Assembly (NCBI GenBank): GCA_006969905.1
Contig: CP030887.1
Location: 2,654,730-2,718,729, forward strand
Reading direction: 5' to 3'
Length of the DNA: 64,000 nt
Source: Balneolaceae bacterium
GTDB lineage: Bacteria; Bacteroidota; Rhodothermia; Balneolales; Balneolaceae
Part shown: piece after piece, positions 30,534 through 46,656 of the stretch
How positions within the stretch are numbered: position 1 is the stretch's first letter
Layout of the letters: the number at the start of each line of letters is the position of its first letter
The notes under the pieces: generated by a model
What the model was told of the DNA's origin: nothing
What the model saw: only the letters and a program-made list of their open reading frames with translations
Databases searched by the model: none
Made by a program: the position numbers and the translations under genes

Positions 30534-31022
30534 TCAGGAAACCAGGCCTTTATAGGTGTGGTAGAACCGTTCTAAGTCTTCTAAATAAAAATTCTTAAGG
30601 GCTTGGTTTCCGTCTGTGTTTAATATGTCTTCGAAAACAAATTCCTTTTTGTCCACATACTTAAAAGTGAGTTTCCCCTGATGGAACGATATGGTCTCGA
30701 TTTCCGAAAAAAGATATTCCAGTTTATTTTCTTTGAGAAGTATCATAGAACCTGGTACAAAAAAACCTTCAGAATCAATAAACTGGTTTGCCTGAAGGTT
30801 ATGTTCTTCTATTAATTCCTGGTTCACATAGTCCTTTACATTTTTATCGAACTTTAAATAGACTGAATTAGAGGTTATGCCCAGGGTTACTTCGCTATAT
30901 TTATCAGTTATTTCAAGGATAGCAAATCGATCTGACTCGGGGCCGTCTGTTTCTGCTGAAAAACCATTATTGACAAATACCAGGATAAAGAAAAAAATAA
31001 GGTTAGTAAGTTTTTTGTTCAT
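30534..31022 (-). CDS. secreted hypothetical protein
   Basis: A 162-residue protein with an N-terminal signal peptide (about 5-22, ending near GFSAETDG). The mature part is acidic with strands (FAILEITDKYSEVTLGIT, SVYLKFDKNVKDYV) and an AGxxD-like helix toward the end. No family is recognised. It is divergent from the Pel-like operon, sharing a 130-bp promoter region with it, so common regulation is conceivable, but its product has no visible link to polysaccharide. Confidence 0.65.
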   Translation of the reverse strand: MNKKLTNLIFFFILVFVNNGFSAETDGPESDRFAILEITDKYSEVTLGITSNSVYLKFDKNVKDYVNQELIEEHNLQANQFIDSEGFFVPGSMILLKENKLEYLFSEIETISFHQGKLTFKYVDKKEFVFEDILNTDGNQALKNFYLEDLERFYHTYKGLVS

Positions 31023-31152
31023 GATAGTGTCAATAATATTGAATATGTTAGAACATGGAACACTTGCTTAACACGTTTGTAATCTGAAATGGTTTCATTT
31101 TTTTACAAGTTCCATAATATACGTATTACGGCATAGCAAACAATTAGAATTC

Positions 31153-32304
31153 GTGATAGCACAAGATTTAAATCCTAAAGAGTTTACCATACTTATTGTA
31201 GACGATGCAGAACCTAATTTGGTTTTGCTTTCTTTTGTATTGAAAGAAGAGGGATTTAATGTTCTTAAGGCGAGAGATGGAGAAGAGGCTATTCAAAAGG
31301 TTCAAAGTCATGAACCTGATTTAATACTTTTGGATATCCTGATGCCCGGAATGAATGGATACGAAGTCAGCAAGAGAATAAAAAGCTCAGAATACGCAGC
31401 TATCCCTATCATTTTTCTTAGTGCACTTAATGAGACAGAAAGTAAAGTAGATGCTTTTGAATCTGGTGGAGTAGATTTTATCAATAAGCCTTTCAAAAAA
31501 GAAGAAGTTATTGCCAGGATTAAAACCCATCTTTTTATCAGAAAGCTTCAAAAGCAAAAAGAAGGGCGCTTACGATTACTCAAGGATCGTGAAATAGAAC
31601 TCAGTAAACTCAATAAAAAGAAAGATGAATTGATAAGGATGGTAAGCCATGATATTAAAAACCCTCTTACGGGTATAATAGGCATGACTCAAATTCTTAT
31701 TGAAGACGAGGATATAGAAGCTGAAGAAAGGAAAGAGATACTAGACCTGGTATATCAAAGCGCTGAAAAGTTATTTGAACTTGTAAAGGAAACACTGGAT
31801 AAAGAATCAAATGATGTACAGGTACAAGACTTAAATATTCAGGAAACGGATATCATTGAATTTTGCAAAAAATCTGCCGAAAAATTTAAAAATAAAGCTT
31901 CCTTAAAGGGCATTGAGCTTAGTGTAAAGCCACATATAGACGAATTGTTAGTACCTTTCGATAATGATAAACTTTCCACGGTGCTGGAAATACTTATTAC
32001 AAATGCAATAAGGTTTACTCTTGACGGAGGCTCCATTGAAATAAGTATTGAAAAGCATAATGATGATCATTGTTTGTTGAAAGTTATGGACACGGGTATC
32101 GGAATCTCATCTGAAATTTTAGATAACTTTATTATACAAACTGAAAATGAAGCCGATAAGGAAAGTACTTTTGACTCAGGGTTAGACCTGGGGCTTGATA
32201 TTGTTCAAAGAAAAATAAAATCGCACAACGGGAATATTTGGGTTAGTTCTGAAGAAGAATCGGGGACTACTTTTTATATAGAACTCCCATTACAAATTAA
32301 ATAA
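31153..32304 (+). CDS. receiver-histidine kinase (REC-HisKA-HATPase), first gene of Pel-like operon
   Basis: A 383-residue soluble signalling protein. Residues 11-125 form a receiver domain with acidic D17/D18, phosphoacceptor D61 and lysine K112. A linker coiled coil leads to the HisKA domain with H166 (MVSHDIKNP), and the HATPase has an N-box ILITNAIRFT, G1 box MDTGIGIS, and a GLDLGLDIV second G-rich region. A receiver preceding the kinase means it takes input from another phosphodonor. The start is GTG (31153); no in-frame ATG is close. It is followed 3 bp later by a receiver-only regulator. No DNA-binding domain is present in either. Confidence 0.9.
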   Translation: MIAQDLNPKEFTILIVDDAEPNLVLLSFVLKEEGFNVLKARDGEEAIQKVQSHEPDLILLDILMPGMNGYEVSKRIKSSEYAAIPIIFLSALNETESKVDAFESGGVDFINKPFKKEEVIARIKTHLFIRKLQKQKEGRLRLLKDREIELSKLNKKKDELIRMVSHDIKNPLTGIIGMTQILIEDEDIEAEERKEILDLVYQSAEKLFELVKETLDKESNDVQVQDLNIQETDIIEFCKKSAEKFKNKASLKGIELSVKPHIDELLVPFDNDKLSTVLEILITNAIRFTLDGGSIEISIEKHNDDHCLLKVMDTGIGISSEILDNFIIQTENEADKESTFDSGLDLGLDIVQRKIKSHNGNIWVSSEEESGTTFYIELPLQIK

Positions 32305-32307
32305 TAG

Positions 32308-33243
32308 ATGAGCTATACGATTTTAGTTATAGATGATGATGAACCCATTCATTTTATGACAAAAAGCATGTTAGGTAAAGAATTCATCCTAAAACATGCC
32401 AGAGATGCACAAGAAGCCATTAATATACTCTCTGAAGGCAGTGTAAACCTGATACTTTCAGACATTCACATGCCGGGACTTTCGGGTCTGGAATTTCTTG
32501 AATCTGTTCGTTTGGATAAAGAAAAAAATCAGATTCCAATCCTTATAATGACCAATCTGCCAACGATTGAAAAAGAAAAAAAGGCTTTTGATTTAGGTGC
32601 TGCTGACTTCATTAAAAAGGAAAGATTTAACAACGACAGAGAAGCAGTAATTGATATAATTCGAATGAAGTTGGTTACGGATATTCATGTTACAGGGCTT
32701 GAAGATGATATTGTTAAAAAGAAAGACCAGCTAGTAATGAAGCTAATGGAAAAAGCCATTAAAGGGTCTTTTGAAGATACAATCCAGGTACTTATATCCG
32801 AACTTAACTCAATTATTGAAACAGATCTTATAGGTTTGTGGGTTGTTGAAGGTAGTGAACCAAAAAATGTGGTATTCTCGGGTAATGAATTACCTGCTGA
32901 TTCTTCACTGGATTCATTCGATACCTCCCAAACTTATCAGTTTTTAAAAAATGAGGGTGAACCGTTTTTAAGTAATCATGTTTTTAATGAGGAATTTGGA
33001 TCCTTTCTCGACTTTTCAAAATTAAACGGGATGCCAGCGGAGATCGGGATTCCCTTGCATTCAGTTAATGAGCGTACGCTACTCATGAATAATATGCAAA
33101 TACCGGACGATGCTGAGATGTTTAGTGTGCTTGTTTTAAAAAGAAAAGTGTTGTTTTCGTCTAAAGAATTTGAATTGGTTTCCAGGTTAGTAACTCAGGC
33201 GGGATCTATTCTTTGGAGGTTATATAAAAAGTCAAACTCCTGA
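32308..33243 (+). CDS. response regulator with C-terminal GAF-like region
   Basis: A 311-residue protein with an N-terminal receiver domain (phosphoacceptor D52 in LILSDIHMPG; KK at about 110). The C-terminal approximately 170 residues follow a helical linker (VKKKDQLVMKLMEKA) and show alternating strands such as LIGLWVVEG and MFSVLVLKRKVLFSSKEFELV, ending with an LVTQAGSILW helix, which look like a degenerate GAF domain. There is no DNA-binding or enzymatic output. Its position between the kinase and the glycosyltransferases suggests that it signals to the synthase by contact, possibly in the place of PelD. That is inference. Confidence 0.8.
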   Translation: MSYTILVIDDDEPIHFMTKSMLGKEFILKHARDAQEAINILSEGSVNLILSDIHMPGLSGLEFLESVRLDKEKNQIPILIMTNLPTIEKEKKAFDLGAADFIKKERFNNDREAVIDIIRMKLVTDIHVTGLEDDIVKKKDQLVMKLMEKAIKGSFEDTIQVLISELNSIIETDLIGLWVVEGSEPKNVVFSGNELPADSSLDSFDTSQTYQFLKNEGEPFLSNHVFNEEFGSFLDFSKLNGMPAEIGIPLHSVNERTLLMNNMQIPDDAEMFSVLVLKRKVLFSSKEFELVSRLVTQAGSILWRLYKKSNS

Positions 33244-33246
33244 TTT

Positions 33247-34443
33247 ATGAGAGAAAGAGTACTGCTGGTTATTGAAGGCACCTATCCATGGTACAGGGGG
33301 GGAGTAAGTGAATGGATATATCAATATCTTCGTTATTTTACTGCCTATGACTTTACAATTCTTCAAATTGCTACTGATGAATTTCAAGGCCTAAACCCTA
33401 ATGAGGCATTGTACCCCTTAACTGAAAATGTAAAGGAGTTTATCAGGGTCAGTCCTCCGGAATTAAGTTTCAATTGGCTTGAAGATTCAGAAAAATGGGT
33501 TTCAGCTATTGATGAAAGTTTAGAGCTGGCATTAACTGATGCTGCAGCAATACATGTAACAAATACTGGTTTTGCCGGTTGGTTGGGGGTATTTTTGAAG
33601 AACACGTCCCAACTTCCTTTAGTGCTGACTGAACATGCCCTGTATTGGAAAGAGGTAGAAAAAGGAGCTATTGCTTTAGAGTGCGGTTATAAAATACCTC
33701 AAAATGGATCAGGCCAGAAATATGTAGCCCGATTGTTTAAAGAGATAGCCTCAGAGGTATATACTGCGTCGGACGAAGTTATCTCCGTTTCCCGGACTAA
33801 TATTCCACTCCAAATTATGTATGGTGCAAGTTCCCCTGTTTATATACCTAATGGTATCCCAATCGACTCTTTGGTAAGCACTAAAAACTCTGTTAAGAAC
33901 CCTACTATAGGCTGGGTTGGAAGGTGCGCGGAAATGAAGAACCCAAACCTGTTTTTAGATGCTGTACAGGAATGGACTCAATCCGGTTTTAAAGCAAACT
34001 ATATGATGCTTTTATGCGATGCTAATGAAAAGGAATTACAAGATCAGATAAAAAAACGACAAAAGGATTTCCCACAGGTTGAATTTATATGGAATAAAGA
34101 AGCTTCATCTTATTATTCAAAAATGGATATGCTTTGCATTTCAAGCCATAATGAATCTCAGCCTTTAGTTATGCTCGAAGGACTGGCAAACAGAGTTTTA
34201 CCAATAGGTTGGGAAGTAGGGGATCTGACCTCTGAGTTTGGTTTTGTAGTGCCAGAAGGTGTAAGTGTACAAACATTTTGTAACCAGGTTGAATCCTTAT
34301 GGAATGATAAAAACAAGTATGCAGAATTAGTAGAAAGCAAATTTGAACATGTTGCTTATAATCACACGTGGGGTATAATTTTTAAAAAATACCACCAATT
34401 ATTATCTCAGCTGCTTGCCAAAGAGAGGTATATGCAGGAATGA
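33247..34443 (+). CDS. PelF-like glycosyltransferase, shorter paralogue (GT4)
   Basis: A 398-residue GT-B glycosyltransferase. The N-terminus EGTYPWYRGGVSEW corresponds to the PelF-specific EGxYPYxxGGVSxW, and a VLTEHALYWKE block parallels the TDHGVYMRER of the next gene. The C-terminal domain has the EX7E motif in SSHNESQPLVMLEG. It is about 110 residues shorter than PelF, lacking much of the N-terminal DUF3492 extension. The first gene of the synthase section, it overlaps the next by 4 bp (ATGA). It may form a heteromer with the longer enzyme or add a different sugar; I cannot tell which. Confidence 0.82.
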   Translation: MRERVLLVIEGTYPWYRGGVSEWIYQYLRYFTAYDFTILQIATDEFQGLNPNEALYPLTENVKEFIRVSPPELSFNWLEDSEKWVSAIDESLELALTDAAAIHVTNTGFAGWLGVFLKNTSQLPLVLTEHALYWKEVEKGAIALECGYKIPQNGSGQKYVARLFKEIASEVYTASDEVISVSRTNIPLQIMYGASSPVYIPNGIPIDSLVSTKNSVKNPTIGWVGRCAEMKNPNLFLDAVQEWTQSGFKANYMMLLCDANEKELQDQIKKRQKDFPQVEFIWNKEASSYYSKMDMLCISSHNESQPLVMLEGLANRVLPIGWEVGDLTSEFGFVVPEGVSVQTFCNQVESLWNDKNKYAELVESKFEHVAYNHTWGIIFKKYHQLLSQLLAKERYMQE

Positions 34444-36029
34444 GTAACAAGCGCCCAACCGTTTTATTCCAAACAGAAGGTTCATACCCATATAGCGGGG
34501 GTGGAGTAAGTACCTGGGCGCATATTCTTTGTACAGAACTGGAAGAAGAAATAGATTTCCAGTTATTTGCTGTTACCGGTAACCCCTTTGTTGAAACGAG
34601 GTACAAACTTCCCGGAAATATAAAAGATATTATTCATGTGCCGCTGTGGGGTGTAGAAGAACCCGTAGAATACTTTGATAATAAGCTCCCTTTTTCATCT
34701 CATGTTTATAGAAAATCCAGAACCACAAAAGCTGTTGTCAAAAAAGTTTTCATGCCTTTGTTCCAGGATTTTATAAAATGCCTGAAGGATCCTTTCGGGG
34801 ATGTTCTCTTCATTAGTGATACCATTTATGGACTTTGGAAGTACTTTCAATGGTACGACTACAAAATTACCATGCGTGAACCTCTTCTTTGGGTGGAATT
34901 TAAAAACTCAATGTCCACACAATTTGAATCGCTCAACATTGAAGAGGTTGGAGCAGAACCGAAAGTTTTTGATATGACCTTTGGTATGCGTTGGCTGTAT
35001 CATTTTATGATGCCTGTTGCATCACCAATTCCAAGAGAGATTGATATTTGCCATGCTACCTTAGCCGGGTTCCCAGCTTTAACATCAATAGCGGCAAAGT
35101 ATGAATATGGAACCCCGGGTATAGTTACTGATCATGGTGTTTATATGAGGGAAAGATTAATTAATGTCGGAAGGTCAGACATGCCTTTCTTTTCCAAGAA
35201 GCTGCTCGTTGATCTCTCCACATTGGTAACCCGTTCTGTTTATTACACAGCCGATCAAATATCACCTGTTACAACGGCTAACCAGGCATGGGAAATGCGT
35301 TTTGAAGCATCTGAAGACAATATACTACCCATTTATAATGGAGTTGATACCGACCTTTTTAAACCTCTTCCCAAACCTAAGCACACAAAAGACAGGCCAA
35401 CCGTAATTGCAGTAGCACAGGTTTTTCCTTTAAAGGATATCGAGACCATGATTAGAAGCTGTAAAGAGGTTCGTAAGACTATACCTGATGTTCAGTATAT
35501 CGTTTATGGAAGCCTTGAAGTAGATAAAGATTATGTACAGAAATGCAGGGATTTAGTCGATGAATTAGGTTTGGGAGATAATTTTACATTTGGGGGCTTT
35601 CACAATCAACCCAACATGATTTTTAACGAGGGTGATATTTCCATTTTAACTTCCATTTCAGAGGGGTTCCCATATACAGTCATAGAATCTATGAGTTGTG
35701 GCCGGCCTGTAGTAGCAACAGATGTTGGAGGGATACGGGACGCACTGGAAGGTTGTGGAATTCTGTGTAAACCCAGGGATCCGGTTGATATTGCAAACGG
35801 GGTAATTAAGCTTCTTGAAGACACCCAACTCCGGTTAGAGTTAGGAAACAAATCCAGGGATAAAGTCCTTCTTAATTTTACTACCGATAAATCAGTAAAA
35901 GCTTATTTAGAGACATATAAAAAGTTGGCTGATAAACCCAGAAAGCCACTTAAAGAACAGGTCAAATCACTAAGTGTGCTGGCTTTGCTTAACCATATAG
36001 AAAGTATGGATTATGAAAAAGCAAGTTGA
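34440..36029 (+). CDS. pelF: PelF-like glycosyltransferase
   Basis: A 529-residue cytoplasmic glycosyltransferase of GT4 type with the PelF (DUF3492) N-terminus: TEGSYPYSGGGVSTW, later GIVTDHGVYMRERLI, and PIYNGVDTDLFKP. The C-terminal donor domain has a TSISEGFPYTVIESMSCGRP EX7E motif. PelF, with UDP-GalNAc or related sugar, makes the polymer of the Pel system in Pseudomonas. Length and motifs agree with PelF (about 500 residues). It overlaps the preceding paralogue by 4 bp and the PelG-like gene by 17 bp, so it is tightly co-translated. The substrate sugar here is unknown. Confidence 0.9.
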   Translation: MSNKRPTVLFQTEGSYPYSGGGVSTWAHILCTELEEEIDFQLFAVTGNPFVETRYKLPGNIKDIIHVPLWGVEEPVEYFDNKLPFSSHVYRKSRTTKAVVKKVFMPLFQDFIKCLKDPFGDVLFISDTIYGLWKYFQWYDYKITMREPLLWVEFKNSMSTQFESLNIEEVGAEPKVFDMTFGMRWLYHFMMPVASPIPREIDICHATLAGFPALTSIAAKYEYGTPGIVTDHGVYMRERLINVGRSDMPFFSKKLLVDLSTLVTRSVYYTADQISPVTTANQAWEMRFEASEDNILPIYNGVDTDLFKPLPKPKHTKDRPTVIAVAQVFPLKDIETMIRSCKEVRKTIPDVQYIVYGSLEVDKDYVQKCRDLVDELGLGDNFTFGGFHNQPNMIFNEGDISILTSISEGFPYTVIESMSCGRPVVATDVGGIRDALEGCGILCKPRDPVDIANGVIKLLEDTQLRLELGNKSRDKVLLNFTTDKSVKAYLETYKKLADKPRKPLKEQVKSLSVLALLNHIESMDYEKAS

Positions 36030-37647
36030 CCTAAACACCGCTTCTGATACTTCTAACCAGGAACGTTTTGAGCAACTGGTGGAGAAAGTATTTGAGTTGA
36101 TTGACAATCCACTGAGCAACTGGGCTGTGGCAGCTACTATTGAATCGCTTGGTGTCAGGGATATTGATGCAAAAACCGATTATGGTTTTGATTCTGTTTT
36201 TGATTTAGCAGATGAAGTTCTCAAAGCTATAAAGAAAAAAATTGCAGACAGATTTGTAGATGAACAGCATAAGGAAAAAATCAAGCTGGGTAATTTTGCT
36301 TCCAGTTCATGGCTATTCATAAAGTATTATGGTGCAGGCCTTGTTTTTTCGTTGCCTATGCTTTCACAGATTGTAGCTATTCTGATTTTTGAATATGCTT
36401 TATGGGCCTGGTTCAAGTTCAATGAAACGCAGGCAACTATGGTTGCGATAGGCACTATTGCCTCTTTTGCTGTTACGGGTGGTTATATACAGGTTTTTGG
36501 ACGGCTCATTTCTAAATACAAAGGGGAGGAGAACTATTACCTGACATGGAAGGCGGCACAAAGGATTCTTATGTCAGCTCTGCCTGTAATAGTGGGCTTT
36601 GCTGCTTTAGCATTCATAATTAACCTGGCGTTACCATTTTATCCTGCCAGGATGATTGTAATTGCTATTGTATACTACCTGTTAATTTCTTTAATGCTGC
36701 TTGCTGCGGCTATTTTATTTGCAAGTGCACAAAGGGCTATTATACTTTTTGGCATCCTTTTTGGAACAGGGGTTGTTATTTTTTGTATGGAGTTTCTTGA
36801 TATGGGAATCTATTTTTCTCAGTGGGTTGGGCTTGCCTCTGCAACATCGGTTCTGGGTTTATATATTTGGGTATACTTCAAGTTCAAAATACGCTCGTTA
36901 AGGCAGCAATTATTTAAACAATCTCTCCCAAACAACGAAGTCAGCTTCTTTAACAACTACCGGTATTTTGTATATGGGTTTTGCTATTTCACTTTCCTGT
37001 TTGTTGATAGAATAATGGCATGGTCTACCGGCAGCCCGCCGCCGCCTTATATTATTTGGTTCAATACTCCCTATGAGTTGGGAATGGATTGGGCACTGAT
37101 AAGCCTGATCATAACTGTTGCCGTACTTGAGTTCAGTATTCAGTTGTTTTCAAAAAAGCTTATACCTGCTCAAAAAAAATCGCCCATTACAAAAATTAAA
37201 TTCTTCAATTCTTATTTCGGCAGGTTTTACTTTTTGCAGGTTTTGCTTTTCTCGGTAGTAAGCATTGTTTCTGTTGCAGCTAGTTACTATGGGGTTCTTT
37301 CTTTGCGCGTATTTGAAGACCAGGTACCAGAAATAAAAGATTTTTTCGCCAACCCTGTAACCTTTAAAGTTTTTTGGATGGGGGCGATAGGATACATCTT
37401 TCTGATCTATGGCTTAATGAATTCATTATTCTTTTTTACCCTAAACAGGCCTGAGTTTGTGATGTATTCGATTGTTCCTTCTCTGATTGTTAATGGAGTT
37501 GTTGGGTATATATGTAGCAGGGTTATTTCATACGAATATGCTACAGTTGGTTTAATTGCCGGTGCTATTACTTTTGCTGTAATTACAGGATTAATTGCAC
37601 GTCAATTTTTTAAACATTTGGATTATTTTTATTACTCTGCATATTGA
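36013..37647 (+). CDS. pelG: PelG-like exopolysaccharide flippase with N-terminal extension
   Basis: A 544-residue polytopic protein, about 90 residues longer than usual PelG. About 12 membrane helices follow residue 95, with PelG-like landmarks: TGGYIQVFGRLISKYK, and LFVDRIMAWSTGSPPPPYIIWFN (read here as DRIMAWSTG and then FNTPYELGMDW). PelG belongs to the MOP flippase superfamily and moves the chain across the inner membrane with PelF. The first approximately 95 residues are soluble, acidic and helical, with no known match. The start ATG is inside the PelF-like gene and overlaps it by 17 bp. The extension could dock the synthase. Confidence 0.88.
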   Translation: MKKQVDLNTASDTSNQERFEQLVEKVFELIDNPLSNWAVAATIESLGVRDIDAKTDYGFDSVFDLADEVLKAIKKKIADRFVDEQHKEKIKLGNFASSSWLFIKYYGAGLVFSLPMLSQIVAILIFEYALWAWFKFNETQATMVAIGTIASFAVTGGYIQVFGRLISKYKGEENYYLTWKAAQRILMSALPVIVGFAALAFIINLALPFYPARMIVIAIVYYLLISLMLLAAAILFASAQRAIILFGILFGTGVVIFCMEFLDMGIYFSQWVGLASATSVLGLYIWVYFKFKIRSLRQQLFKQSLPNNEVSFFNNYRYFVYGFCYFTFLFVDRIMAWSTGSPPPPYIIWFNTPYELGMDWALISLIITVAVLEFSIQLFSKKLIPAQKKSPITKIKFFNSYFGRFYFLQVLLFSVVSIVSVAASYYGVLSLRVFEDQVPEIKDFFANPVTFKVFWMGAIGYIFLIYGLMNSLFFFTLNRPEFVMYSIVPSLIVNGVVGYICSRVISYEYATVGLIAGAITFAVITGLIARQFFKHLDYFYYSAY

Positions 37648-37650
37648 GGT
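37646..37650 (+). promoter_or_regulatory. Shine-Dalgarno (GAGGT) of the HD-GYP-like gene
   Basis: GAGGT lies 6 bp upstream of the ATG at 37657, overlapping the PelG-like stop. Good ribosome binding sites are rare in this window, so it supports this start. Confidence 0.6.
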
Positions 37651-37656
37651 ACATAT

Positions 37657-39213
37657 ATGATTAAGGATGTAAAAGAATACTTAAGTACTGTCGGGAACAG
37701 GCTCAGTAAAGCCTTTTCAGTTGAGGGTTTTGGTACTGAAAAAGAGCTGGAGTTCTGGTCGCTTTCTGCAGAACATATGTCCCGGAAAGAGCCACCCTCT
37801 TTTCCCGATATAGCAAAATGGATAGATATGCTTTACCGGGCACCTGTTCATATAGTGTATCGAAAAGAAGGTGACAACCTCGTATTAAGCAGGCGTCATT
37901 TATTTGTAGAAAACCTGTTAAAAAAAGAGGGCGGCACTTCTGATAAAAAAGACTTTTCTGTAGAAGAAAAACAGTTTATACAGGATTTTGAGAATCAAAT
38001 GGGCAACCTTGAAAAGAAAAGGGCATGGGATGATGATTTTTCTGCTCATGGTATTTCTTCTCATACCATTGGTAACTGTGAGCATATTCCAATTTATGAT
38101 ACAGACGGGGAGAATTGGGGGGTATATGTGGTAGGCCCCTTTATAAAAAGCCCGGATCTGATGGTTCCTAAACTGTCTATTGTAGGGAGAATTCTTGCCA
38201 TTTGGCTTGTCAGGCTGAATGAGGAAGAGGAAATGGCAAGAAACAAATACCAGGAAAGTATCGATGAGGTTGCATCTAATCTTGGAACAGGTGCCCTAAA
38301 TACCGAAGGTATTATGCACCTAATCCTGTCTTATTTAACCAATAAAGTAAATGCTAAATCAGGATTAGTTGTAGAATTAATAGAAGAGAAACCCAAAATA
38401 ATTTCATCCCTGAATATCTCTGGCAAAGAAGCTAAAGAGGTTATCAAGGAAATCACTGATTCCAAAAGAGAACTCTACATCCCATTTAAAGCAGAAAATA
38501 GTAATGGGTTTATTTGGATTGATGTTGATAGTACTAACCCTGATGTGGGTATTGAATCCCTAAAGAAACCACTCTCAGATACAGTTGGGGATTTAATCTC
38601 TTACCGAGAGGATAACCTGGTATTCTCTAATCAATTGTTAGAGACTTATTATAAAATGCTGCGTGCAATAGAGAAATCAAGAGATAAAACACAGTATCAC
38701 ACACCAAGGTTGATAGCATTTGTTGAGCGCTTTGGTATGTTTTTTGGATTAGAAGAGATAGAAATTGATAGAATTAAACTAACAGCCAAACTACATGATA
38801 TTGGCTATGTGGGTGCAACCAGTATTAGTTCCTCTTTCAGTATTGATTCAGAAATGTCTCACCCCATCACCGGTGCAAAAATGGTAAACCAGCTTCCTAT
38901 TCATAAAGATGTAATAAAAGGTATAGAAACACATCACGAGTGGGTTAACGGGCAAGGCACACCTTATGGTTTAGAAGGCGACAAAATACCATGGTCAGGT
39001 AAAATTATAAGTGTATTCGAGTTTATAGTAGACTTTATCGAAACGTATGAGCATTCTGATGCCGGAAAAGAGGAAGAACTGATCCAATTACTAAATAATA
39101 ATTTGATTGAGCGGGCCGATAAGCAGTTTGACATGGTATTAATCCCCACGGTAATCCAACTTATCCAAATGCTTGGATGGGAAGGGTGTAAGTCTTTGGG
39201 AGTTAATGAATAA
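37657..39213 (+). CDS. GAF/HD-GYP-like regulatory protein
   Basis: A 518-residue cytoplasmic protein. Residues about 55-190 and 200-320 look like two sensory domains, the second GAF-like. The C-terminal HD-GYP-type domain has H348 (YHTPR), H380-D381 (KLHDIG), H402 (SHPITG), and H426-H427-E428, all expected metal ligands. The signature GYP is GTP here (GQGTPYGLEG), and the later AD-type metal block reads VFEFIVD, with Glu in place of the first Asp. HD-GYP enzymes cleave cyclic di-GMP; this one may bind rather than hydrolyse it. It fills the position of a PelD-type c-di-GMP sensor in a Pel operon. Confidence 0.85.
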   Translation: MIKDVKEYLSTVGNRLSKAFSVEGFGTEKELEFWSLSAEHMSRKEPPSFPDIAKWIDMLYRAPVHIVYRKEGDNLVLSRRHLFVENLLKKEGGTSDKKDFSVEEKQFIQDFENQMGNLEKKRAWDDDFSAHGISSHTIGNCEHIPIYDTDGENWGVYVVGPFIKSPDLMVPKLSIVGRILAIWLVRLNEEEEMARNKYQESIDEVASNLGTGALNTEGIMHLILSYLTNKVNAKSGLVVELIEEKPKIISSLNISGKEAKEVIKEITDSKRELYIPFKAENSNGFIWIDVDSTNPDVGIESLKKPLSDTVGDLISYREDNLVFSNQLLETYYKMLRAIEKSRDKTQYHTPRLIAFVERFGMFFGLEEIEIDRIKLTAKLHDIGYVGATSISSSFSIDSEMSHPITGAKMVNQLPIHKDVIKGIETHHEWVNGQGTPYGLEGDKIPWSGKIISVFEFIVDFIETYEHSDAGKEEELIQLLNNNLIERADKQFDMVLIPTVIQLIQMLGWEGCKSLGVNE

Positions 39214-39218
39214 TATTA

Positions 39219-40064
39219 ATGAACCACAACCTGATTGTATATCTGCTCATTGTGATTTTATTTAGTCAGTGTTCTTTAGTCAAGGATCAAAAACGGGCAT
39301 CAAAGCAATTTGAATCTTTTGGTATTGTATACTCAAAAATTGAACCTGTACAAGTGAAAGGTTATGACCTTGTAGTAGTAGAAGCAGATTTATACACAAG
39401 GCAGGAAATTGATGCGATGAGAGCTTTTGGTGCAACAATTACAGGGTATTTATCACTGGGAGAGGTGAATAGGTACAGAAATTACTTTCCTACATTAGAA
39501 AAAAGAGGATTATTAGGAAATAATACGGATTGGGGGAGTTTTTACCTCGATCTGAGTGATGATTCTACAAAAGCCATTCTTCTAGGCAGGGCTTCAGAGA
39601 TCATTGAAAAAAATGTTGACGGTTTGTTCCTTGATACCATTGATGCAGTATCACCGAATAGTTCAAGAAACCATCTTATTCCACACATGGTTGAACTCAT
39701 CCAATTGCTTGAACAAAAGCATCCTGATAAAATATTAATCCAAAATGCAGGCCTTTTCTTACTAGACGAAACACAAAATGCTGTAGATGCAGTTACCGTT
39801 GAAGGGATTGCCAGTGGATATGATTTTGGGAAAAAAGAATACAAAGTATTCAGCGGAAATGAGTTTAAAGAACGCATAAAGTGGTTAGATACTTTTCGTG
39901 ATAGCACTAACCTTCCATTTCTGATAGTTGATTTTGCCAACTCGGTGGAAAAAGAAAAACTAATACGTACTTCGCTCGATACACTTGGCATTCCTTACTT
40001 TTTAAGTTCTATTGAATTGGACAAACTCCCTTCAAAAAAATCATCCGGGAAGGGGGGTAAGTAA
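39219..40064 (+). CDS. GH114 lipoprotein, PelA hydrolase-domain-like
   Basis: A 281-residue lipoprotein (hydrophobic 5-15, Cys18 in FSQC). It resembles the GH114 (endo-alpha-1,4-polygalactosaminidase) TIM barrel, which forms the N-terminal part of PelA. Visible are GYLSLGEVNRYR (E82), a GLFLDTIDAV strand (D139), and VTVEGIAS (E195). The catalytic residues cannot be fixed with certainty; an acidic pair near the barrel's C-terminal edge is expected. It would cleave or edit the alpha-1,4-linked galactosaminoglycan in the periplasm. It begins 5 bp after the HD-GYP-like gene and its stop overlaps the next start by 1 bp (TAATG). Confidence 0.87.
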   Translation: MNHNLIVYLLIVILFSQCSLVKDQKRASKQFESFGIVYSKIEPVQVKGYDLVVVEADLYTRQEIDAMRAFGATITGYLSLGEVNRYRNYFPTLEKRGLLGNNTDWGSFYLDLSDDSTKAILLGRASEIIEKNVDGLFLDTIDAVSPNSSRNHLIPHMVELIQLLEQKHPDKILIQNAGLFLLDETQNAVDAVTVEGIASGYDFGKKEYKVFSGNEFKERIKWLDTFRDSTNLPFLIVDFANSVEKEKLIRTSLDTLGIPYFLSSIELDKLPSKKSSGKGGK

Positions 40065-42121
40065 TGCCTTACTATTTACATGTATTGCTTGATGCCCTGA
40101 GGATTGTTGTTTGTTTTGTTGTCATATTTGCCTGGCTGGGGCCAAAGTTTTTACCCCATGCCCGAAAGCAGCATGGAATTGATCGCCTTATTTATTCCTG
40201 TTTAGGCCTTGGTGGCTTAATAATAGTAGCCACCTTTATACTAACCATGCTTAATATTTATGATTTCATCAGCCTTTTTACCTGTCTTATAATACTTCCT
40301 TTTCTGATTCAGCTTTACCATGAATACCGTTCAGGTACTCCTTTCCTCCAGGTTTTTAAAGCCGTAGAAAACCGAGTGGTAGCATCTGCAATTAAAGCTA
40401 TTGAGAAGAGTAAGGAACTTACGTTAGCTTCACTCAAAAAAAAATACCTTAAAAAACCGGGTTTTTTGTTTAAAAAATCTAACTACCTGCTAACAGCAAT
40501 TATAATTGGTGCATGTGCCGGTATTGTAAGGATTATACCGGCTATACAAAGTTCTGCGCCCTCCAGCAGAAACTGGTATTTTGAATTAGAGGCAGTAAAA
40601 AACCTGCGTTTGCAACATTATTTTGGGGATATACCTATGCCAAGGGGTATGCACTCTATCGTGCAGTTGTTCAGCACACTTACCCAGGTTACCCCGGAAA
40701 TGATATTGAACATTTTAGGAGGATTAGTCAGTTTTTTCCTTGCAATACTTATTTACTGGATAATAAGGGAACTCACAAAAGGGAAGCGTAAAATGTCGGC
40801 ACTGTTCGGGATGAGCATTTATGCTTTTCTTCCAACTTTACTGCTGCCCATTTCTTTGGATATTGAAAGTGAGTCAAACATTCTTAAGCTGGCTCTTTGT
40901 TTTGCTTTACCTACTGCTTTTGTATTTCTCAGGAATATAAGAATGAAAGAAAAAGCACCTTGGTTTTACGTTTCAATAGGGGTAATTGCCACAGGTTTAA
41001 TAAATATTTTTGTACTAATCTTTATTCTGCTTCCTTTTTTATTGTTTGGCTTGTTCACTATACCCAGAAAGTTTTTTCTGAAAAACTTTTTAAAGCTATT
41101 CACTTATATCTTGTCTTTATATGTGTTAACACTGGCTCCATACTTTGCATACTTATTTTATAAAGGAGTAGATATTACATCCTTTTTTGAATTGCAGTTT
41201 TATAACACACTGGTATTCAGCTATTTTCCAAATTTGATAACTGACCTGGATATGCTTTCCCTTATTTATTTGGGGATAGGTTTATTTGTGCTACTCGGAT
41301 TCCTTATTAATCATTTTGTTCAAAAGAACAGGTATCTAGGCGACATAGCCATATTTCTGATTATGTTTTGCTGTGTTTCTTTCCTCTACACTCCTTATTT
41401 CAATATTTCTTTTTTGCTAATCGATCCGGATCAACTCAATAGCTTCTATAGTGTAATGATCCCGGTTGTTTTTGGCCTTGTTTTCTATTTTTTCTTCGCA
41501 TTTCTGGAAGATGTTTTGAAGCTGAAAGAATCTTTATCCCTCTATATCCAGCCTTTCATAATGGTAATTCTCATTGCAGGCTCATTAATCGGAACAGGGG
41601 GAATAAAGATGACCGATGAATTACCTCAAACACTACCCAACGGATTTTTTAATGCTTATTACAACATTGTAAATGAGCGATTACCTTACTCATACTCTAC
41701 AGTGGGCCCTGAGATTGATCGCACGCTGGCAATGAACCGGCATTACTTTATGAATTATGAGTTTTTTCTCCAAAACTATGGGGCTATTGACTCTTTGTAT
41801 CAGCAATACCTGACTGTTCCAGTAGAGCAGAGAGAAAGTGAAGAAATACCACCGGCAAGTATTTTTCTTTTTGTTGAAAAGCCTCCTTACAACTCCATTC
41901 AACAAGGTATACTTTACGAATCTTCAACAGTTATGAAAGATATTGAACAATGGATCGCAACTTTCCGGGAATTAGAAAACAGGACTATAGAAGTGTATTA
42001 TGAATCAGAAGATGCTATAGTGTATGAAATCATCAACAGAGCGGACGAATCGAATATTAACAAAGTGCTTTTAAACATGTACCCTAAAGAGGATGGCCGT
42101 GCTTCCAGCTTGTTTAAATAG
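40064..42121 (+). CDS. polytopic inner-membrane protein of unknown family in Pel-like operon
   Basis: A 685-residue protein with about 13 membrane helices (first at 4-22 and 43-63; others to about 512) and a C-terminal periplasmic tail of about 170 residues. A large loop between helices 4 and 5 contains SRNWYFELEAVKNLR and PMPRGMHSIVQL, a pattern that resembles GT-C transferases, but no known motif is certain. It does not match PelE or PelD, which have TPR or GAF/GGDEF domains. Candidate roles are a GT-C transferase or a second transporter. It is co-translated with its neighbours (1 bp and 29 bp overlaps). Confidence 0.75.
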   Translation: MPYYLHVLLDALRIVVCFVVIFAWLGPKFLPHARKQHGIDRLIYSCLGLGGLIIVATFILTMLNIYDFISLFTCLIILPFLIQLYHEYRSGTPFLQVFKAVENRVVASAIKAIEKSKELTLASLKKKYLKKPGFLFKKSNYLLTAIIIGACAGIVRIIPAIQSSAPSSRNWYFELEAVKNLRLQHYFGDIPMPRGMHSIVQLFSTLTQVTPEMILNILGGLVSFFLAILIYWIIRELTKGKRKMSALFGMSIYAFLPTLLLPISLDIESESNILKLALCFALPTAFVFLRNIRMKEKAPWFYVSIGVIATGLINIFVLIFILLPFLLFGLFTIPRKFFLKNFLKLFTYILSLYVLTLAPYFAYLFYKGVDITSFFELQFYNTLVFSYFPNLITDLDMLSLIYLGIGLFVLLGFLINHFVQKNRYLGDIAIFLIMFCCVSFLYTPYFNISFLLIDPDQLNSFYSVMIPVVFGLVFYFFFAFLEDVLKLKESLSLYIQPFIMVILIAGSLIGTGGIKMTDELPQTLPNGFFNAYYNIVNERLPYSYSTVGPEIDRTLAMNRHYFMNYEFFLQNYGAIDSLYQQYLTVPVEQRESEEIPPASIFLFVEKPPYNSIQQGILYESSTVMKDIEQWIATFRELENRTIEVYYESEDAIVYEIINRADESNINKVLLNMYPKEDGRASSLFK

Positions 42122-45100
42122 AGTGCTATATGTACTTCTTCTTTCCTTTTTGGCTATAAGCTGCAGAGAGAAAAAGGAAGTATTTGAAAATGAAGAAACA
42201 TTTCTTGAACAGGAACCTTTAGTACTACTAATTAAAAACAGGAATGACGTTTATGCGGATGAAGTATCAGAGCAAGTAATAAAAGCGTTGGATTATTCGA
42301 AATTTCCTTACCAAACCTATGATTCAGGTATCATTTCGGGAGGGTTTAATATCCCTAAATCAGTAAGAGTTGTAGTTAATACCAGTTATTTGATAAGCGA
42401 TAGCAATCAAGATGATATAGACAAGCTTGTAGAGTTTACCGCAAGGGGAGGTCATTTGGTTTTTGTAGGCCCTGTAGCTTATGATGAGTTCGAATACCTG
42501 CAAGGTTTTAAGTACGATACTGACTTTATAATGGGTGCTTCAAAGATTGGTTACAGAATGGTAGGTAAAGCCTTTCCAAATCAAACTGATTCAAAATTGA
42601 TTTTTGGTTTTAGTGATGCTCATGATGGTTATTCACTGGATAATTTCAGAGATGATGTTAAGGTTTATGTAACTGCCGCAAACGATACTACTTACCCTAT
42701 AGTAATTAGTAATAAAGTCGGCCTTGGGGAAGTCATAACTATAAATAGTACTACTTTAGAAGAAAAGGATCATAGAGGTTTAATTTTTTCTACTATCGTA
42801 AAAGGTTTACAGGGTATTCCTTATAGCGTAGCCAATGTAAGTACAATTTTTTTGGATGATTTTCCTGCTCCGCTGTACAATGAGAAGATTGAACCCATAG
42901 CCTCTGAATACAATGTGGAGCAGGCCGAATTTGTTGTGGATATCTGGTGGCCAGATATGAAAGCTCTTGCTGATTCTTTTGATATGGACTATTCCGCAAT
43001 GACGGCCTTTAATTATAATGCCAACGTAGTGCCACCTTTTGATTTCAGAGAGTGGGAATCCGGAAAGTTAATTAAAAATGGCAGGGAAGTTGAAGCCAGT
43101 ATATATGTGGCACAAGATGTTGCAAGTACAAGGCATGAAATGGCTTTTCACGGATATAACCACTTTTCTCTATGGTTAGAAGACTGGGATAACATCAATT
43201 TTATGGCTGCTTCCTTGCAATCCAGTAGAAAGAGATGGAGAATTGACGACCTTGGTAAGTTACCTGTCAGCTACGTTCCGCCAACTAACTACATTGATTC
43301 TACCGGTATACAAGCTTTGACAAAAGGACTTCCCTCAATCAAAATATTAAGCTCTCTTTATCTTGGAGATACCGAAGACGGAGGAAACAGGGAGTTCGAT
43401 ATTGATCCGTATAGTGAGCGACTTTTCAATTATCCCCGGATTTCAAGTGGGTTTACCATGTCGGATGAAACCATTTTCAATCAGCATGGAATGCAAATTG
43501 TAACGGGTATATGGAATCACTTCATCCATCCAGATGATGTATTTCAAATATCACAGCGTGCAGAGGATAGTTTTAAAAGCAGGAACCCGCTGGGATTGGG
43601 GTGGAAAACCTCGGAAGACAGGAACTACGGATTATACCAGGTTTTTGTACAGCGTTTAGACTATACGCTTTCACATTACCCTTTAACAAGGTTTGTTAGC
43701 GCGAAAGAAGGAGCTGCCATCGCCCAGGATTGGGTAAACAAGTGGGCACGATATGAATTAGAAGAAAACCTGTATACAGTTAAAACAAAGTATGCGTCAA
43801 ACTATGAACGTAAAAATCCCAAACCCGAAAACAATCAGTGGTTTTTATATGTAGCTGAATCTGAGGTGGATTCTGTATTTTCTCATCTATCGAACCAGGT
43901 TAACAGGATTGAAAAATCAAATTATTGGGATGGGGTTCTTGTACAGTTTCATACATTCAGAGACAGTATTTCTATTCCAAACTTTACTCCCGGCTTTGAT
44001 ACCAACGAAGAGACAGTTGATGCAATAGTAGCACAGGTTTTTGAAGAATATCGAAATTATCAAACCCCGCCTGAGGATGAGTTTTTTGCTGAGGATCGGC
44101 CGGACACTCGCTACCAGGATGCACTTCGTCAATACCTTGCTAACCCTTCTTCATTTGAAGTGCAGGAACAGTTGATTGAATTAGCCATTGAGTTTCAGGA
44201 AGTGCCCAGGGCAATCTCAATTCTTGAGAACAGGATACTGAGAACCCCGGATTGGAGAGAAGCAGACCAAGAAAAGCTCATCAGGTATTATGGCTGGGAA
44301 AATGTTCCGGATCAGGCCATCGAATACCTGGAAAAATTATGGCTGCGATATGGAAATGAGCGGGTAATAACATTTAAAGATTCAACACAGGCTAACCTGG
44401 ATGTGTACTCCCCGGATTTTGCTCAGCGATGGTACGAACGCGAAGTAATGCTTCAACCCGATAACGAAGCACTTGTACTGGAATATTTAAGAAGTGTGGA
44501 GAATGCTGAGTATTGGCCGGAAATAAAGAAAGAGCTTCTCAGACTTATTGGCAATAATCCCGGTTCAGATAGTCTTTATGTATATACCTTGCAACGTTCT
44601 TTCTTTTATGATTCATTAAGGGCTTCTATAAAACTTTTAGAAGAATTCCCGGAATACTCTCATACTCAAATCACACCCCTGGCAGCGAACATAGCCAATG
44701 TTTATGGATACGAGTTTAAAGAATATGATAAGGCGCTATACTGGGCTGAAAAAGCTCTGGACTTCTCAATTCAGGCTAAATTAGACTGGATGGCACAAAA
44801 GAAAGATTTCGATGCTTTTTACACAACCGCAAAAAAACACCTGGGAAGTACACCTCAGGATGACAGCATCCGGGTTTTTTCGGGTACCATACTTTTTTAC
44901 CAGGGATATAAAGAAAAAGGTTATGAAATCATGTACCCGCTTTTTCAAAAAGATAAAACAGGTACTACGGACGCACATAAACTCAAAAATACAGAAATCT
45001 CTTTTATGAGCCTGGAAGACCGTTTGGATCTGTACAGCCGGTATCCTGAGTTTTTTAATGACAAGGAGCAAAAACGATTGGCACAAAACTACAGGAGTGA

Positions 45101-45989
45101 AAGGGGTGTGAAAGGATCTGCATTTGGTGAATACTATTCGGATAACTTTGATAACACCAGCGCCCGTGGGGGTATTTCGGTTCAAATTGGTAACCGAAGA
45201 GACCAGACCCATACATTCAGGCTTGAAGATATTTACGCCTCCAGTGCAATAAACAACCAGGTGCCTTCTTCAAATTATGCGGGCCTGGGCTATGAATTTG
45301 AAGATCGCACGTTGGACTATAAATGGATTTTTAAAGCGGGAGGAGGGATTTTTGCAGGAACAGATGGTATAATCGGGGAGCTGTCCACTACTCTTTCGTA
45401 CAGTTATGATTCGACGTTTGCTTCAGGGGAACTTTCCCTTGAGCCTATACTTACTCAGGCAGGTATCGATCAAAATATATACAAATCACAATTATCAATA
45501 TATCGCGAAGACTTTTGGGCTAAAGATTTACTCCTCACCACTTTTTCTGGAGGAGCAAAGTATTACACAAACAGTGTTTTTGAGTATGACGCGACAGGGC
45601 GTGTATACTTTCAACCCCGTAATAATGAATTCCGGGTTCGTGCTATCAGTGAGCTTTTTTATGCGGATGCTTCTGAAACATTTCAATCAGGTATTCCCTT
45701 CTTTACCCCCGAAAATCTATTCGTAAAAGGGCTTGGGATTGACTTCAGGTACAGAGAACCAAATGACTTCAGCTATTTTACGTTAGCGGAACTGGAAATA
45801 ATGGGTAAGCATGAAACAACGGACGGTTTTTTTGTGACGGGCAGGGCATCGCTGGAAAAAAAGCTGAAAAGCTTCTGGGAGTTCAAAATCGGTACGGAAA
45901 TATCTACTAGTGAAGTATACAGGTCAAACCGGGTATTTTTTACTATTTCACATATATTCAACCGCAGAATTTTACAGAAACAAGATTAG
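42093..45989 (+). CDS. PelA-like deacetylase fused to TPR and outer-membrane barrel (PelB-like) lipoprotein
   Basis: A 1298-residue exported lipoprotein (Cys24 in AISC). Residues about 45-245 form an alpha/beta (glutamine-amidotransferase-like) domain. Residues about 250-490 are a DUF2194/PelA-type polysaccharide deacetylase: D255-D256 in LDDFPAP, H353 and H357 in HGYNH, YVPPTNY, and H476 with HPDD (479-482), the metal and catalytic residues of PelA deacetylases. Residues about 680-1010 are TPR-like. The last approximately 280 residues alternate polar and aromatic strands like an outer-membrane barrel, as in PelB. PelA and PelB are separate in Pseudomonas; here deacetylase, TPR and barrel are one chain. 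It overlaps the upstream gene by 29 bp. Confidence 0.85.
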   Translation: MAVLPACLNRVLYVLLLSFLAISCREKKEVFENEETFLEQEPLVLLIKNRNDVYADEVSEQVIKALDYSKFPYQTYDSGIISGGFNIPKSVRVVVNTSYLISDSNQDDIDKLVEFTARGGHLVFVGPVAYDEFEYLQGFKYDTDFIMGASKIGYRMVGKAFPNQTDSKLIFGFSDAHDGYSLDNFRDDVKVYVTAANDTTYPIVISNKVGLGEVITINSTTLEEKDHRGLIFSTIVKGLQGIPYSVANVSTIFLDDFPAPLYNEKIEPIASEYNVEQAEFVVDIWWPDMKALADSFDMDYSAMTAFNYNANVVPPFDFREWESGKLIKNGREVEASIYVAQDVASTRHEMAFHGYNHFSLWLEDWDNINFMAASLQSSRKRWRIDDLGKLPVSYVPPTNYIDSTGIQALTKGLPSIKILSSLYLGDTEDGGNREFDIDPYSERLFNYPRISSGFTMSDETIFNQHGMQIVTGIWNHFIHPDDVFQISQRAEDSFKSRNPLGLGWKTSEDRNYGLYQVFVQRLDYTLSHYPLTRFVSAKEGAAIAQDWVNKWARYELEENLYTVKTKYASNYERKNPKPENNQWFLYVAESEVDSVFSHLSNQVNRIEKSNYWDGVLVQFHTFRDSISIPNFTPGFDTNEETVDAIVAQVFEEYRNYQTPPEDEFFAEDRPDTRYQDALRQYLANPSSFEVQEQLIELAIEFQEVPRAISILENRILRTPDWREADQEKLIRYYGWENVPDQAIEYLEKLWLRYGNERVITFKDSTQANLDVYSPDFAQRWYEREVMLQPDNEALVLEYLRSVENAEYWPEIKKELLRLIGNNPGSDSLYVYTLQRSFFYDSLRASIKLLEEFPEYSHTQITPLAANIANVYGYEFKEYDKALYWAEKALDFSIQAKLDWMAQKKDFDAFYTTAKKHLGSTPQDDSIRVFSGTILFYQGYKEKGYEIMYPLFQKDKTGTTDAHKLKNTEISFMSLEDRLDLYSRYPEFFNDKEQKRLAQNYRSERGVKGSAFGEYYSDNFDNTSARGGISVQIGNRRDQTHTFRLEDIYASSAINNQVPSSNYAGLGYEFEDRTLDYKWIFKAGGGIFAGTDGIIGELSTTLSYSYDSTFASGELSLEPILTQAGIDQNIYKSQLSIYREDFWAKDLLLTTFSGGAKYYTNSVFEYDATGRVYFQPRNNEFRVRAISELFYADASETFQSGIPFFTPENLFVKGLGIDFRYREPNDFSYFTLAELEIMGKHETTDGFFVTGRASLEKKLKSFWEFKIGTEISTSEVYRSNRVFFTISHIFNRRILQKQD

Positions 45990-46010
45990 TAGTATTTCGT
46001 AGCTTACTGC

Positions 46011-46331
46011 ATGAAAAAAATTCGTCCTCATATTGAATGGATGGCTTTCTTTTTTGGATTGATCCTGATGGCCACCTTGAATCCTTACATTGAAGGGACC
46101 AGTTTTTGTATATATGAGCTTGCAGGCATTACTTTTTGTCCCGGAGATGGCCTGGGGCACTCTATTGCCTTTTTGTTTAGAGGAGAGTTTTCTGAGGCAA
46201 TGGAGGCGAATCTTTTCGGGCCATTGGCCGTACTTGTTTTGAGTTTAAGAATATTGAGTATTTGGAAGAGAATGATTGTTGATAAAAATAAAACTAACAC
46301 TATCGGAGTAGAAGATGGCAAAAGTTATTGA
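46011..46331 (+). CDS. DUF2752 membrane protein
   Basis: A 106-residue DUF2752 protein. It has an N-terminal hydrophobic segment, a conserved cysteine pair in CIYELAGITFCPGDGLGHS, and a second membrane helix around residues 65-90. The family is usually found beside TM2-domain genes, as here. Its role is unknown. It begins 21 bp after the large fused lipoprotein gene and overlaps the TM2 gene by 17 bp, so it belongs to the operon physically, though not obviously to polysaccharide synthesis. Confidence 0.85.
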   Translation: MKKIRPHIEWMAFFFGLILMATLNPYIEGTSFCIYELAGITFCPGDGLGHSIAFLFRGEFSEAMEANLFGPLAVLVLSLRILSIWKRMIVDKNKTNTIGVEDGKSY

Positions 46332-46656
46332 TCACGTACCTGCAGCAGAAGGGGATGAAGCTCTTTATCTGAACAAGTTGTTTTCAGATTTAAGCGATGA
46401 AGATGCCGGCAAGTTTGCTAATATTTATAATGCCAGAAGAAAAGACCCTCAAATTATACTTATAACCTGCTTGATTGGCTTCCTGGGAATTGCCGGAGTT
46501 CACAGGTTCTTATTAAATCAGGTGGGCATGGGAATCCTTTATTTGTTCACTGGAGGGCTTTGTATAATTGGTATCATTGTAGATTTAATTAACTACAAAG
46601 ACTTAACCTTCCAGTACAATAGGCAGGTAGCTCAGGAGATTAAAAATTTTCTTTAA
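46315..46656 (+). CDS. TM2 domain-containing protein
   Basis: A 113-residue protein. The N-terminal approximately 45 residues are soluble and helical. The TM2 domain follows: an IILITCLIGFLGIAGVHRF segment with the conserved GxxGxHRFxL-type core, then GMGILYLFTGGLCIIGIIVDL. TM2 proteins have unknown bacterial roles. It overlaps the DUF2752 gene by 17 bp and is the last gene of the operon, followed by a terminator. Confidence 0.9.
   Translation: MAKVIDHVPAAEGDEALYLNKLFSDLSDEDAGKFANIYNARRKDPQIILITCLIGFLGIAGVHRFLLNQVGMGILYLFTGGLCIIGIIVDLINYKDLTFQYNRQVAQEIKNFL

Follow-up and report, generated by a model that had tools for sequence, protein, structure and literature searches.

A probable compact Pel-type exopolysaccharide operon of Balneolota and Bacteroidota, with a deacetylase fused to a predicted porin

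Pel, known mainly from Proteobacteria and Gram-positives, serves as a model for synthase-dependent biofilm polymers. A survey of its operons reports great diversity, Thermotogae included (Bundalovic-Torma et al., PMC7112194), and PelA homologues are reported from 16 phyla (PMC12022489); in the main text of the former, as available, neither Bacteroidetes nor Balneol- is mentioned, and Bacteroidota is not among the phyla named in the available text of the latter. No description of Pel in Bacteroidota or Balneolota was found in the open-licence literature, preprints being outside the scope, and a paper considered as a Sphingobacterium pel report (PMC8305213) was ruled out, the pel genes in its available text being those of P. 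aeruginosa. Here we describe, in a 64-kb stretch (hereafter the window) of the genome of a Balneolaceae bacterium assembled as a single contig of 3,489,855 bp, eleven open reading frames (ORFs), genes A to K, all called on the plus strand between 31153 and 46656, which very probably constitute a compact Pel-type exopolysaccharide operon of Balneolota/Bacteroidota. What the sequences show is the set of genes and their arrangement, their homologies, the conservation of catalytic residues, the folds as predicted, and the lack of a GGDEF match in most of the hosts tested.

In Pseudomonas, PelA and PelB are described as separate, interacting proteins whose interaction enhances deacetylation (PMC12022489), the PelB barrel being formed by 16 strands (PMC12141448). 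The Bacillus cereus deacetylase PelA_DA, whose structure is deposited as 9ZAU, is reported to de-N-acetylate oligomers of alpha-1,4-linked N-acetylgalactosamine (GalNAc) and to be the founder of families CE26 and CBM114 (PMC13254593). As to regulation, streptococcal PelD proteins without GGDEF are known, that of S. thermophilus JIM8232 being described as retaining the membrane and GAF parts (PMC7112168).

The arrangement of the locus given by the first-pass annotation of the window, eleven plus-strand genes with overlaps or gaps of at most 21 bp, was found to be exact, with successive spacings from A to K of 3, 3, -4, -17, 9, 5, -1, -29, 21, and -17 bp. Conservation was evaluated in two sets of loci, one of 26 regions and another of 80 out of 154 relatives of protein I, which overlap, so that their counts are not additive; the latter extends 10 kb upstream of I, which places gene A outside its count. 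In 68 of these 80 loci the order D-E-(F)-G-H-I (pelF-pelG-hydrolase-H-deacetylase/porin) is found on one strand, with the remaining 12 being either rearranged (one, L094, as G-D-E-H-I) or cut by contig ends (11), and in 52 loci the core appears without B, C, F, J, and K. Thus, the conserved unit consists of the five genes D, E, G, H, and I, while B, C, F, J, and K are part of a longer form found in Balneolaceae and in a small number of relatives; the proposed eleven-gene unit holds as such for the 15 of the 26 regions that present the whole A-K order (in one of them, L057, G is split into two ORFs and E is short). Among the other regions, five display most of A-K (L047, L049, L055, L056, and, in another order, L039), two display D-E-G-H-I alone, and four lack the operon and show weak or borderline DUF2194 matches (G196 barely over the cut-off, at 30.8 bits). 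Chance adjacency of the genes was rejected by this conserved order, and the variant Pel system earlier postulated is supported, since PelF profiles match and the gene order extends beyond a single genome.

The 80-locus set comprises mostly Flavobacteriaceae, plus Roseivirga and Balneolaceae, the last being the closest relatives of the window genome in the tree of H. Among 296 same-phylum genomes, 37 match DUF2194, 24 of them over the cut-off, and 23 of these carry the long fusion found in I. Strong H matches appear in 22 of 292 genomes, all of them among those 23, which indicates that H and fused I go together; a further genome (G035) matches H weakly, at 20.5 bits, and the 23rd genome with fused I (G293) is not among the H matches listed, yet H is present in its locus (L058). 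Two copies of the system (L089 and L094) are present in Fodinibius sediminis DSM 21194, the second being the rearranged one, with a 1586-aa I. A copy from a Limnohabitans (Pseudomonadota) metagenome-assembled genome (L146) sits on a long branch among Bacteroidota rows and possibly derives from a misbinned contig. The residue counts given below come from alignments that include the window row. Alignments A1 to A4 and A7 contain 15/22, 16/22, 16/22, 17/23, and 13/20 of their references, respectively. For A5, A6, A8, and A9 near-duplicate, short, and long rows were removed, which kept 65/75 H, 67/77 I, 50/69 E, and 49/69 D sequences, all 65 H, 57 of the 67 I, all 50 E, and 31 of the 49 D sequences being finally aligned.

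Two PelF-like glycosyltransferases had been anticipated, and both C and D indeed score over the NCBIfam PelF cut-off (NF038011, 100 bits) and contain a DUF3492 domain, all other PelF-profile matches in the window genome being under that cut-off. The glutamates of the EX7E motif of D, E408 and E416, are present in 32/32 aligned rows. A PelG-like flippase had also been proposed, and for E the PelG profile matches part of the orthologues and not the window protein. The Pfam PelG profile (PF16933) matches 15 of the 51 members of the E alignment at E ≤ 0.001, with up to 37.5 bits for the best orthologue and near full-length coverage (profile positions 23-452 of 452), so that the exporter assignment is reached via orthologues only. 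In the same-phylum draw of 292 genomes, PelG-profile matches occur in 12, in seven cases at such an operon, and five genomes exceed the cut-off. A profile built from E and run over 12 pelF loci carried on plasmids in other phyla gave one match, the Streptomyces protein encoded beside pelF (16.6 bits, E 7e-5). We accept E as a remote PelG homologue. Its N-terminus bears an extra conserved soluble stretch of about 100 aa (36013-36330) ahead of the membrane part, with a motif-like IESLGIRD.D...DYGF and no Pfam match, whereas the canonical PelG of the Paraburkholderia graminis plasmid (L169) has about 25 residues at this place.

Protein G is a GH114-type hydrolase in the Pfam scan, and its best sequence matches in PDB are PelA chains (E 1.8e-28 for 5tcb, then 1.1e-27 and 4.1e-27), followed by an AI-designed TIM barrel (3.9e-16) and TM1410-type proteins (2e-13); by sequence, the closest natural protein in PDB is therefore the PelA hydrolase. 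Residue E195 of G aligns with a position occupied by Glu in 5tcb and by Ala in 5tsy, which we take to be the catalytic E218A mutant of PelA, and it is kept in 18/18 rows, as in a PelA-type hydrolase with its catalytic Glu. A loose lipobox pattern is observed in 15 of the 18 rows, so G is likely a lipoprotein, in agreement with the PelA-hydrolase-like lipoprotein initially suggested.

The protein encoded by I was predicted at first sight as a deacetylase-TPR-barrel protein, and this is borne out by its match to DUF2194 and by structure prediction. Residues 32-567 match B. cereus PelA_DA with an E value of 3.6e-74. The catalytic residues reported for the latter are the base D262, the metal ligands D263, H350, and H354, the acid H488, and D491 (PMC13254593); by the order of aligned motifs they correspond, respectively, to D255, D256, H353, H357, H479, and D482 of I, all of which, together with H476 and D481, are invariant in 58/58 rows, so that the alignment places the catalytic and metal residues of a CE26 Pel deacetylase in I. 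When residues 236-1298 are modelled (pLDDT 88.5, pTM 0.47), a carbohydrate esterase fold is obtained, together with an extended series of TPR-like helices and 16 C-terminal beta strands; the relative placement of these domains is not predicted because of the low pTM. Upon structural comparison with VIA, the deacetylase domain resembles the polysaccharide deacetylases 3qbu and 3rxz (Z 18.4), and the barrel resembles 4y25, which we take to be PgaA (Z 23.7), BcsC (23.2, 22.9, and 22.6), and PelB (21.6), the next porin being at 15.8. Hence, the top five fold matches are exopolysaccharide porins, and a PelB-like TPR-porin fold would be present as a fused domain of the model, with PelB being one of three similarly scoring porins. 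For the TPR part, PDB sequence matches are mostly TPR proteins. Neither 9zau nor PelA is among the top VIA rows for I, an absence that carries no weight. DUF2194 was also located in the pel operon of Cetobacterium alongside pelF and pelG. Among control genomes, Thermotoga maritima matches both the DUF2194 and the PelG profiles and Methanocaldococcus jannaschii matches DUF2194, only one of these two DUF2194-positive controls being over the cut-off.

H, J, and K had been left without a function; J proved to be a DUF2752 protein and K a TM2 protein, and H is considered here the most novel component of the locus. The window copy of H has no Pfam match, 66 H homologues exhibit only scattered weak ones, each in one or two members, and a sequence search of PDB returned nothing significant (one match, E 0.74). 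Its assignment to PelD or to another named family was rejected, no such profile having matched. Its predicted structure (pLDDT 86.8, pTM 0.88) gave seven Foldseek matches at E ≤ 0.001, corresponding to PglB, oligosaccharyltransferase complexes, and DPY19 (best E 4.7e-5, TM about 0.37), with ArnT next (6.3e-3). In VIA, GT-C enzymes occupy all of the first 38 rows, after which Z drops from 9.1 to 7.3; over the first 27 rows it ranges from 15.5 to 20.8, with AglB at 20.8 and yeast oligosaccharyltransferase at 20.0. According to this model H has the GT-C glycosyltransferase fold, and the high root-mean-square deviations from the matches (4-12 Å) denote that it shares the fold of the GT-C superfamily and not a family. 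GT-C enzymes have a catalytic acid in the first extracytoplasmic loop (EL1), just after the first core helix. The equivalent position in H, assigned as 163 from the helices of the predicted model, is occupied by Asp in 52 of the 66 rows, by Asn in 10, by His in three, and by Ser in one, the window copy. E114, W171, and D576 are kept in 66/66 rows and D454 in 65/66. For the flavobacterial form, we judge the chances that H is an active transferase to be about even.

Among the plasmid pelF loci, those of Deinococcus aquaticus, Thermus brockianus, and Kocuria rosea (L170, L173, and L179) adjoin polygalactosaminidase genes and encode proteins of ~700 aa that match profiles of fungal galactosaminogalactan deacetylases (Agd3_CE/CBM87); these loci are possibly another bacterial relative of Pel/galactosaminogalactan synthesis. 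The ~700-aa proteins of Deinococcus, Thermus, and Actinomycetota pelF loci were also considered as relatives of H and rejected, since they contain one hydrophobic segment at most and do not match the H profile; in Thermus, Kocuria, and Deinococcus, the profiles matched are those of Agd3-type deacetylases. The 715-aa protein of the Streptomyces pelF locus (L172) gave no Pfam match.

Kinase, receiver, and HD-GYP-like regulators had been recognised, and the corresponding domains are found in A, B, and F; what does not stand is reading F as ordinary control by cyclic diguanylate (c-di-GMP). This signal, produced by GGDEF enzymes and received by PelD, is what usually turns Pel on. No GGDEF protein was detected in the window genome with a profile matching controls in 8/14 genomes, and no EAL protein with one matching controls in 6/14. 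GGDEF proteins occur in 3/23 system genomes and in 0/31 flavobacterial-side hosts, picked from the 80-locus set and mostly isolates, with genome completeness not stated; altogether, 51 of 54 system-carrying genomes, the window genome included, have no GGDEF match. HD-GYP enzymes present HD, HHE, and GYP motifs and a metal-ligand Asp. F, the sole HD_5 match in the window genome, keeps the HD motif in 14/14 rows and the second H of HHE in 12/14, shows GTP or GSP at the GYP position in 10/14 (GYP only in L039), and has Glu455 in 14/14 at the position of the metal-ligand Asp. An ordinary c-di-GMP phosphodiesterase was consequently rejected for F, considering both the altered motif and a genome without GGDEF or EAL. 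Moreover, a general switch cannot reside in B and F, since the 52 core-only loci lack both. The C-terminal half of B is GAF-like to the eye only. J and K (46011-46656) end the long-form operon and are missing from core-only loci. The G+C fraction over the operon and its upstream neighbour (28001-44000) is 0.36-0.38, versus 0.39-0.41 elsewhere in the window. Coordinates of all features are collected in Table 1.

Table 1. Genes and domains of the A-K locus, in window positions, with the evidence for each assignment.
Feature	Position	Strand	Description	Evidence
Gene A	31153..32304	+	383 aa, receiver and histidine kinase (HisKA, HATPase_c), presumed regulator	Pfam Response_reg 110 bits, HisKA 52, HATPase_c 82.9
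Gene B	32308..33243	+	311 aa, receiver and C-terminal half without assignment, presumed regulator	Pfam Response_reg 68.6 bits, residues 5-105
Gene C	33247..34443	+	398 aa, second PelF-like GT4 glycosyltransferase, long form only	NCBIfam PelF 102.0 bits; DUF3492 106.5 bits
Gene D	34440..36029	+	529 aa, PelF glycosyltransferase (GT4), core	NCBIfam PelF 154.4 bits
Gene E	36013..37647	+	544 aa, PelG-like exporter, 11 hydrophobic segments, core	Pfam PelG (PF16933) matches in orthologues
Gene F	37657..39213	+	518 aa, HD-domain (HD-GYP-like) protein, presumed regulator	Pfam HD_5 49 bits
Gene G	39219..40064	+	281 aa, PelA-hydrolase-like (GH114/GH166-type), likely lipoprotein, core	Best PDB match PelA 5tcb
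Gene H	40064..42121	+	685 aa, 12 hydrophobic segments, predicted GT-C glycosyltransferase fold, without known family, core	Predicted structure
H, part aligned with GT-C enzymes (residues 135-660)	40466..42043	+		VIA model ranges
Gene I	42093..45989	+	1298 aa, PelA_DA deacetylase fused to TPR and predicted 16-strand porin, core	DUF2194 229.9 bits; PDB 9zau
I, CE26-type deacetylase domain (about residues 236-550)	42798..43742	+		Invariant catalytic residues; VIA
I, TPR-like helical repeats (residues 639-1004)	44007..45104	+		Model helices 404-769
I, 16-strand beta-barrel porin (residues 1006-1289)	45108..45959	+		16 strands, model 771-1054
Gene J	46011..46331	+	DUF2752 small protein, accessory of long form	Pfam 36.8 bits
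Gene K	46315..46656	+	TM2-domain small membrane protein, accessory of long form	Pfam 48.9 bits

Regarding the identity of the sugar, the direction of flow, the trimming, the role of H, and the regulation, we infer the following course. PelF (D) would polymerise an N-acetylated aminosugar in the cytoplasm, most likely GalNAc from UDP-GalNAc, and the PelG-like E would carry the chain across the inner membrane. H may act at this inner-membrane step, either adding a lipid-carrier sugar at the periplasmic face or, in the window copy, serving as a scaffold that replaces PelD/PelE. The CE26 domain of I would then partly deacetylate the chain in the periplasm, and its TPRs would pass the chain, cationic by then, to the porin that forms part of the same protein, with the likely lipoprotein hydrolase G trimming the polymer. 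Judging from these enzymes, the product would be a cationic, partly deacetylated aminosugar polymer. In the long form, control might lie with F, the HD protein, and with a phosphorelay formed by A and B, rather than with PelD and c-di-GMP.

A bolder reading, that Bacteroidota/Balneolota hold a second, c-di-GMP-independent Pel lineage in which the GT-C family H replaces PelD/PelE and adds a lipid-carried sugar where the loop Asp is kept, and in which one polypeptide both deacetylates and exports, is put forward tentatively, as less likely than not; it would amount to a so far undescribed polymer factory in an aquatic group of great abundance. Several observations speak against the Pel-type assignment as such. 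The window E gives no PelG match even at E 10 and no significant Pfam match, and most system genomes of the same-phylum draw, the window genome included, have no PelG-profile match. The alignment of E sequences is colinear with seven canonical PelGs in hhalign over 411 columns, though weakly (E 0.0094, Prob 4); against single PelG sequences hhalign is negative, and the profile built from E found no canonical PelG in L169-L171. As for H, its presumed catalytic Asp is replaced by Ser163 in the window copy and by Asn or His in 13 other rows; the window H does not have the acidic EL1 residue of GT-C enzymes, and because of Ser163 we consider it unlikely that this copy is an active transferase. H, which suggests extra chemistry, was likewise not found in the 12 pelF loci located on plasmids. 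The missing components also count here: PelD (PF16963) matched neither the operon nor the genome, in a search that matched no control genome either and that, therefore, cannot by itself exclude PelD; no PelC-named match appeared in general scans (Pfam for all eleven proteins, NCBIfam for A-I), which included no dedicated PelC profile; and PelE was not recognised in the operon, with no dedicated PelE profile used. That PelC, PelD, and PelE lie elsewhere in the genome and c-di-GMP control is intact, as in an ordinary Pel system, could draw on these same limits of the PelD, PelC, and PelE searches, but there is no GGDEF or EAL in the window genome despite working controls and GGDEF is absent from nearly all tested hosts, so we hold this to be very improbable.

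Two other possibilities concern the product. A Pel-derived but mixed polymer, in which a second sugar is added to the PelF backbone by an active H (or by C in the long form) to give a branched or alternating chain nearer to galactosaminogalactan, is somewhat unlikely in our opinion. It is in keeping with the place of H, with its GT-C fold, in the conserved core, and with the distribution of the EL1 Asp, present in most H rows and lost in 14, of which 13 belong to loci with a second PelF (the other, L089, ends before that point). Nonetheless, the homologies of the deacetylase and the hydrolase indicate alpha-1,4-GalNAc enzymes; the loss of Asp and the additional PelF are essentially confined to a single clade (L094 and L039 being on long, unsure branches of the tree), and for that reason they provide no evidence of a causal link and may not be connected; and L094 keeps the H Asp despite a C homologue nearby on the opposite strand. 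A cell-attached glycan, either a capsule or a surface polymer, with H as a ligase moving the chain to lipid or protein, appears quite unlikely. The GT-C matches of H do include oligosaccharyltransferases and ArnT, and a Roseburia pel locus is described within a larger capsule/teichoic-acid-like cluster (PMC7112168), but the fused TPR and 16-strand barrel conform to the architecture of a secreted-polymer porin.

If the five-gene form in flavobacteria and balneolas is indeed a Pel system, it extends Pel to a group of bacteria that is very abundant in aquatic habitats. In I, modification and export could be studied together in a single protein, and this natural deacetylase-porin fusion would give independent genetic support to the coupling of PelA and PelB described in Pseudomonas (PMC12022489). 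The near absence of GGDEF in the tested hosts makes them a clear test case for Pel without c-di-GMP, for which the streptococcal PelD lacking GGDEF is a precedent (PMC7112168); the membrane and GAF parts, nonetheless, remain in PelD of S. thermophilus JIM8232, whereas no PelD was found here, with a profile that matched no control genome.

Comparison with described proteins and operons places the locus as follows. The GT-C enzymes AglB, STT3, PglB, ArnT, PMT, and DPY19 share their fold with residues 135-660 of the H model, although there is no common sequence family and the EL1 acid is missing in the window copy. PgaA and BcsC possess a 16-strand barrel as predicted for I, with TPRs in the BcsC matches, but the matched chains carry no CE26 deacetylase. 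In the pel operon of Cetobacterium somerae (L176), polygalactosaminidase, DUF2194, pelF, and pelG genes occur in one run as they do here; unlike here, there is a GAF protein that resembles PelD in its position, the DUF2194 protein (609 aa) is unfused, and no H match was found in the L176 stretch. The pelDEA_DAFG operon of B. cereus shares with this locus a DUF2194/CE26 deacetylase of the PelA_DA type, which stands alone there, a separate hydrolase, and the PelF-PelG pair (PMC7112168, PMC13254593); as described in PMC7112168, it has no porin in the operon, includes PelD and PelE, neither of which was recognised here, and the available text names no H-like protein. Regarding canonical pelABCDEFG, as in P. 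aeruginosa and in the P. graminis plasmid, neither PelC, PelD, nor PelE was recognised in our locus (PelC and PelE without dedicated profiles), and the GT-C-fold H, not found in L169, is an addition. Both, however, comprise adjacent PelF and PelG, a PelA-type hydrolase, a deacetylase, and a 16-strand TPR-barrel protein; in Pseudomonas PelA and PelB are separate chains, whereas here the order of the genes differs, the hydrolase stands apart from the deacetylase, and the deacetylase and the porin form one chain.

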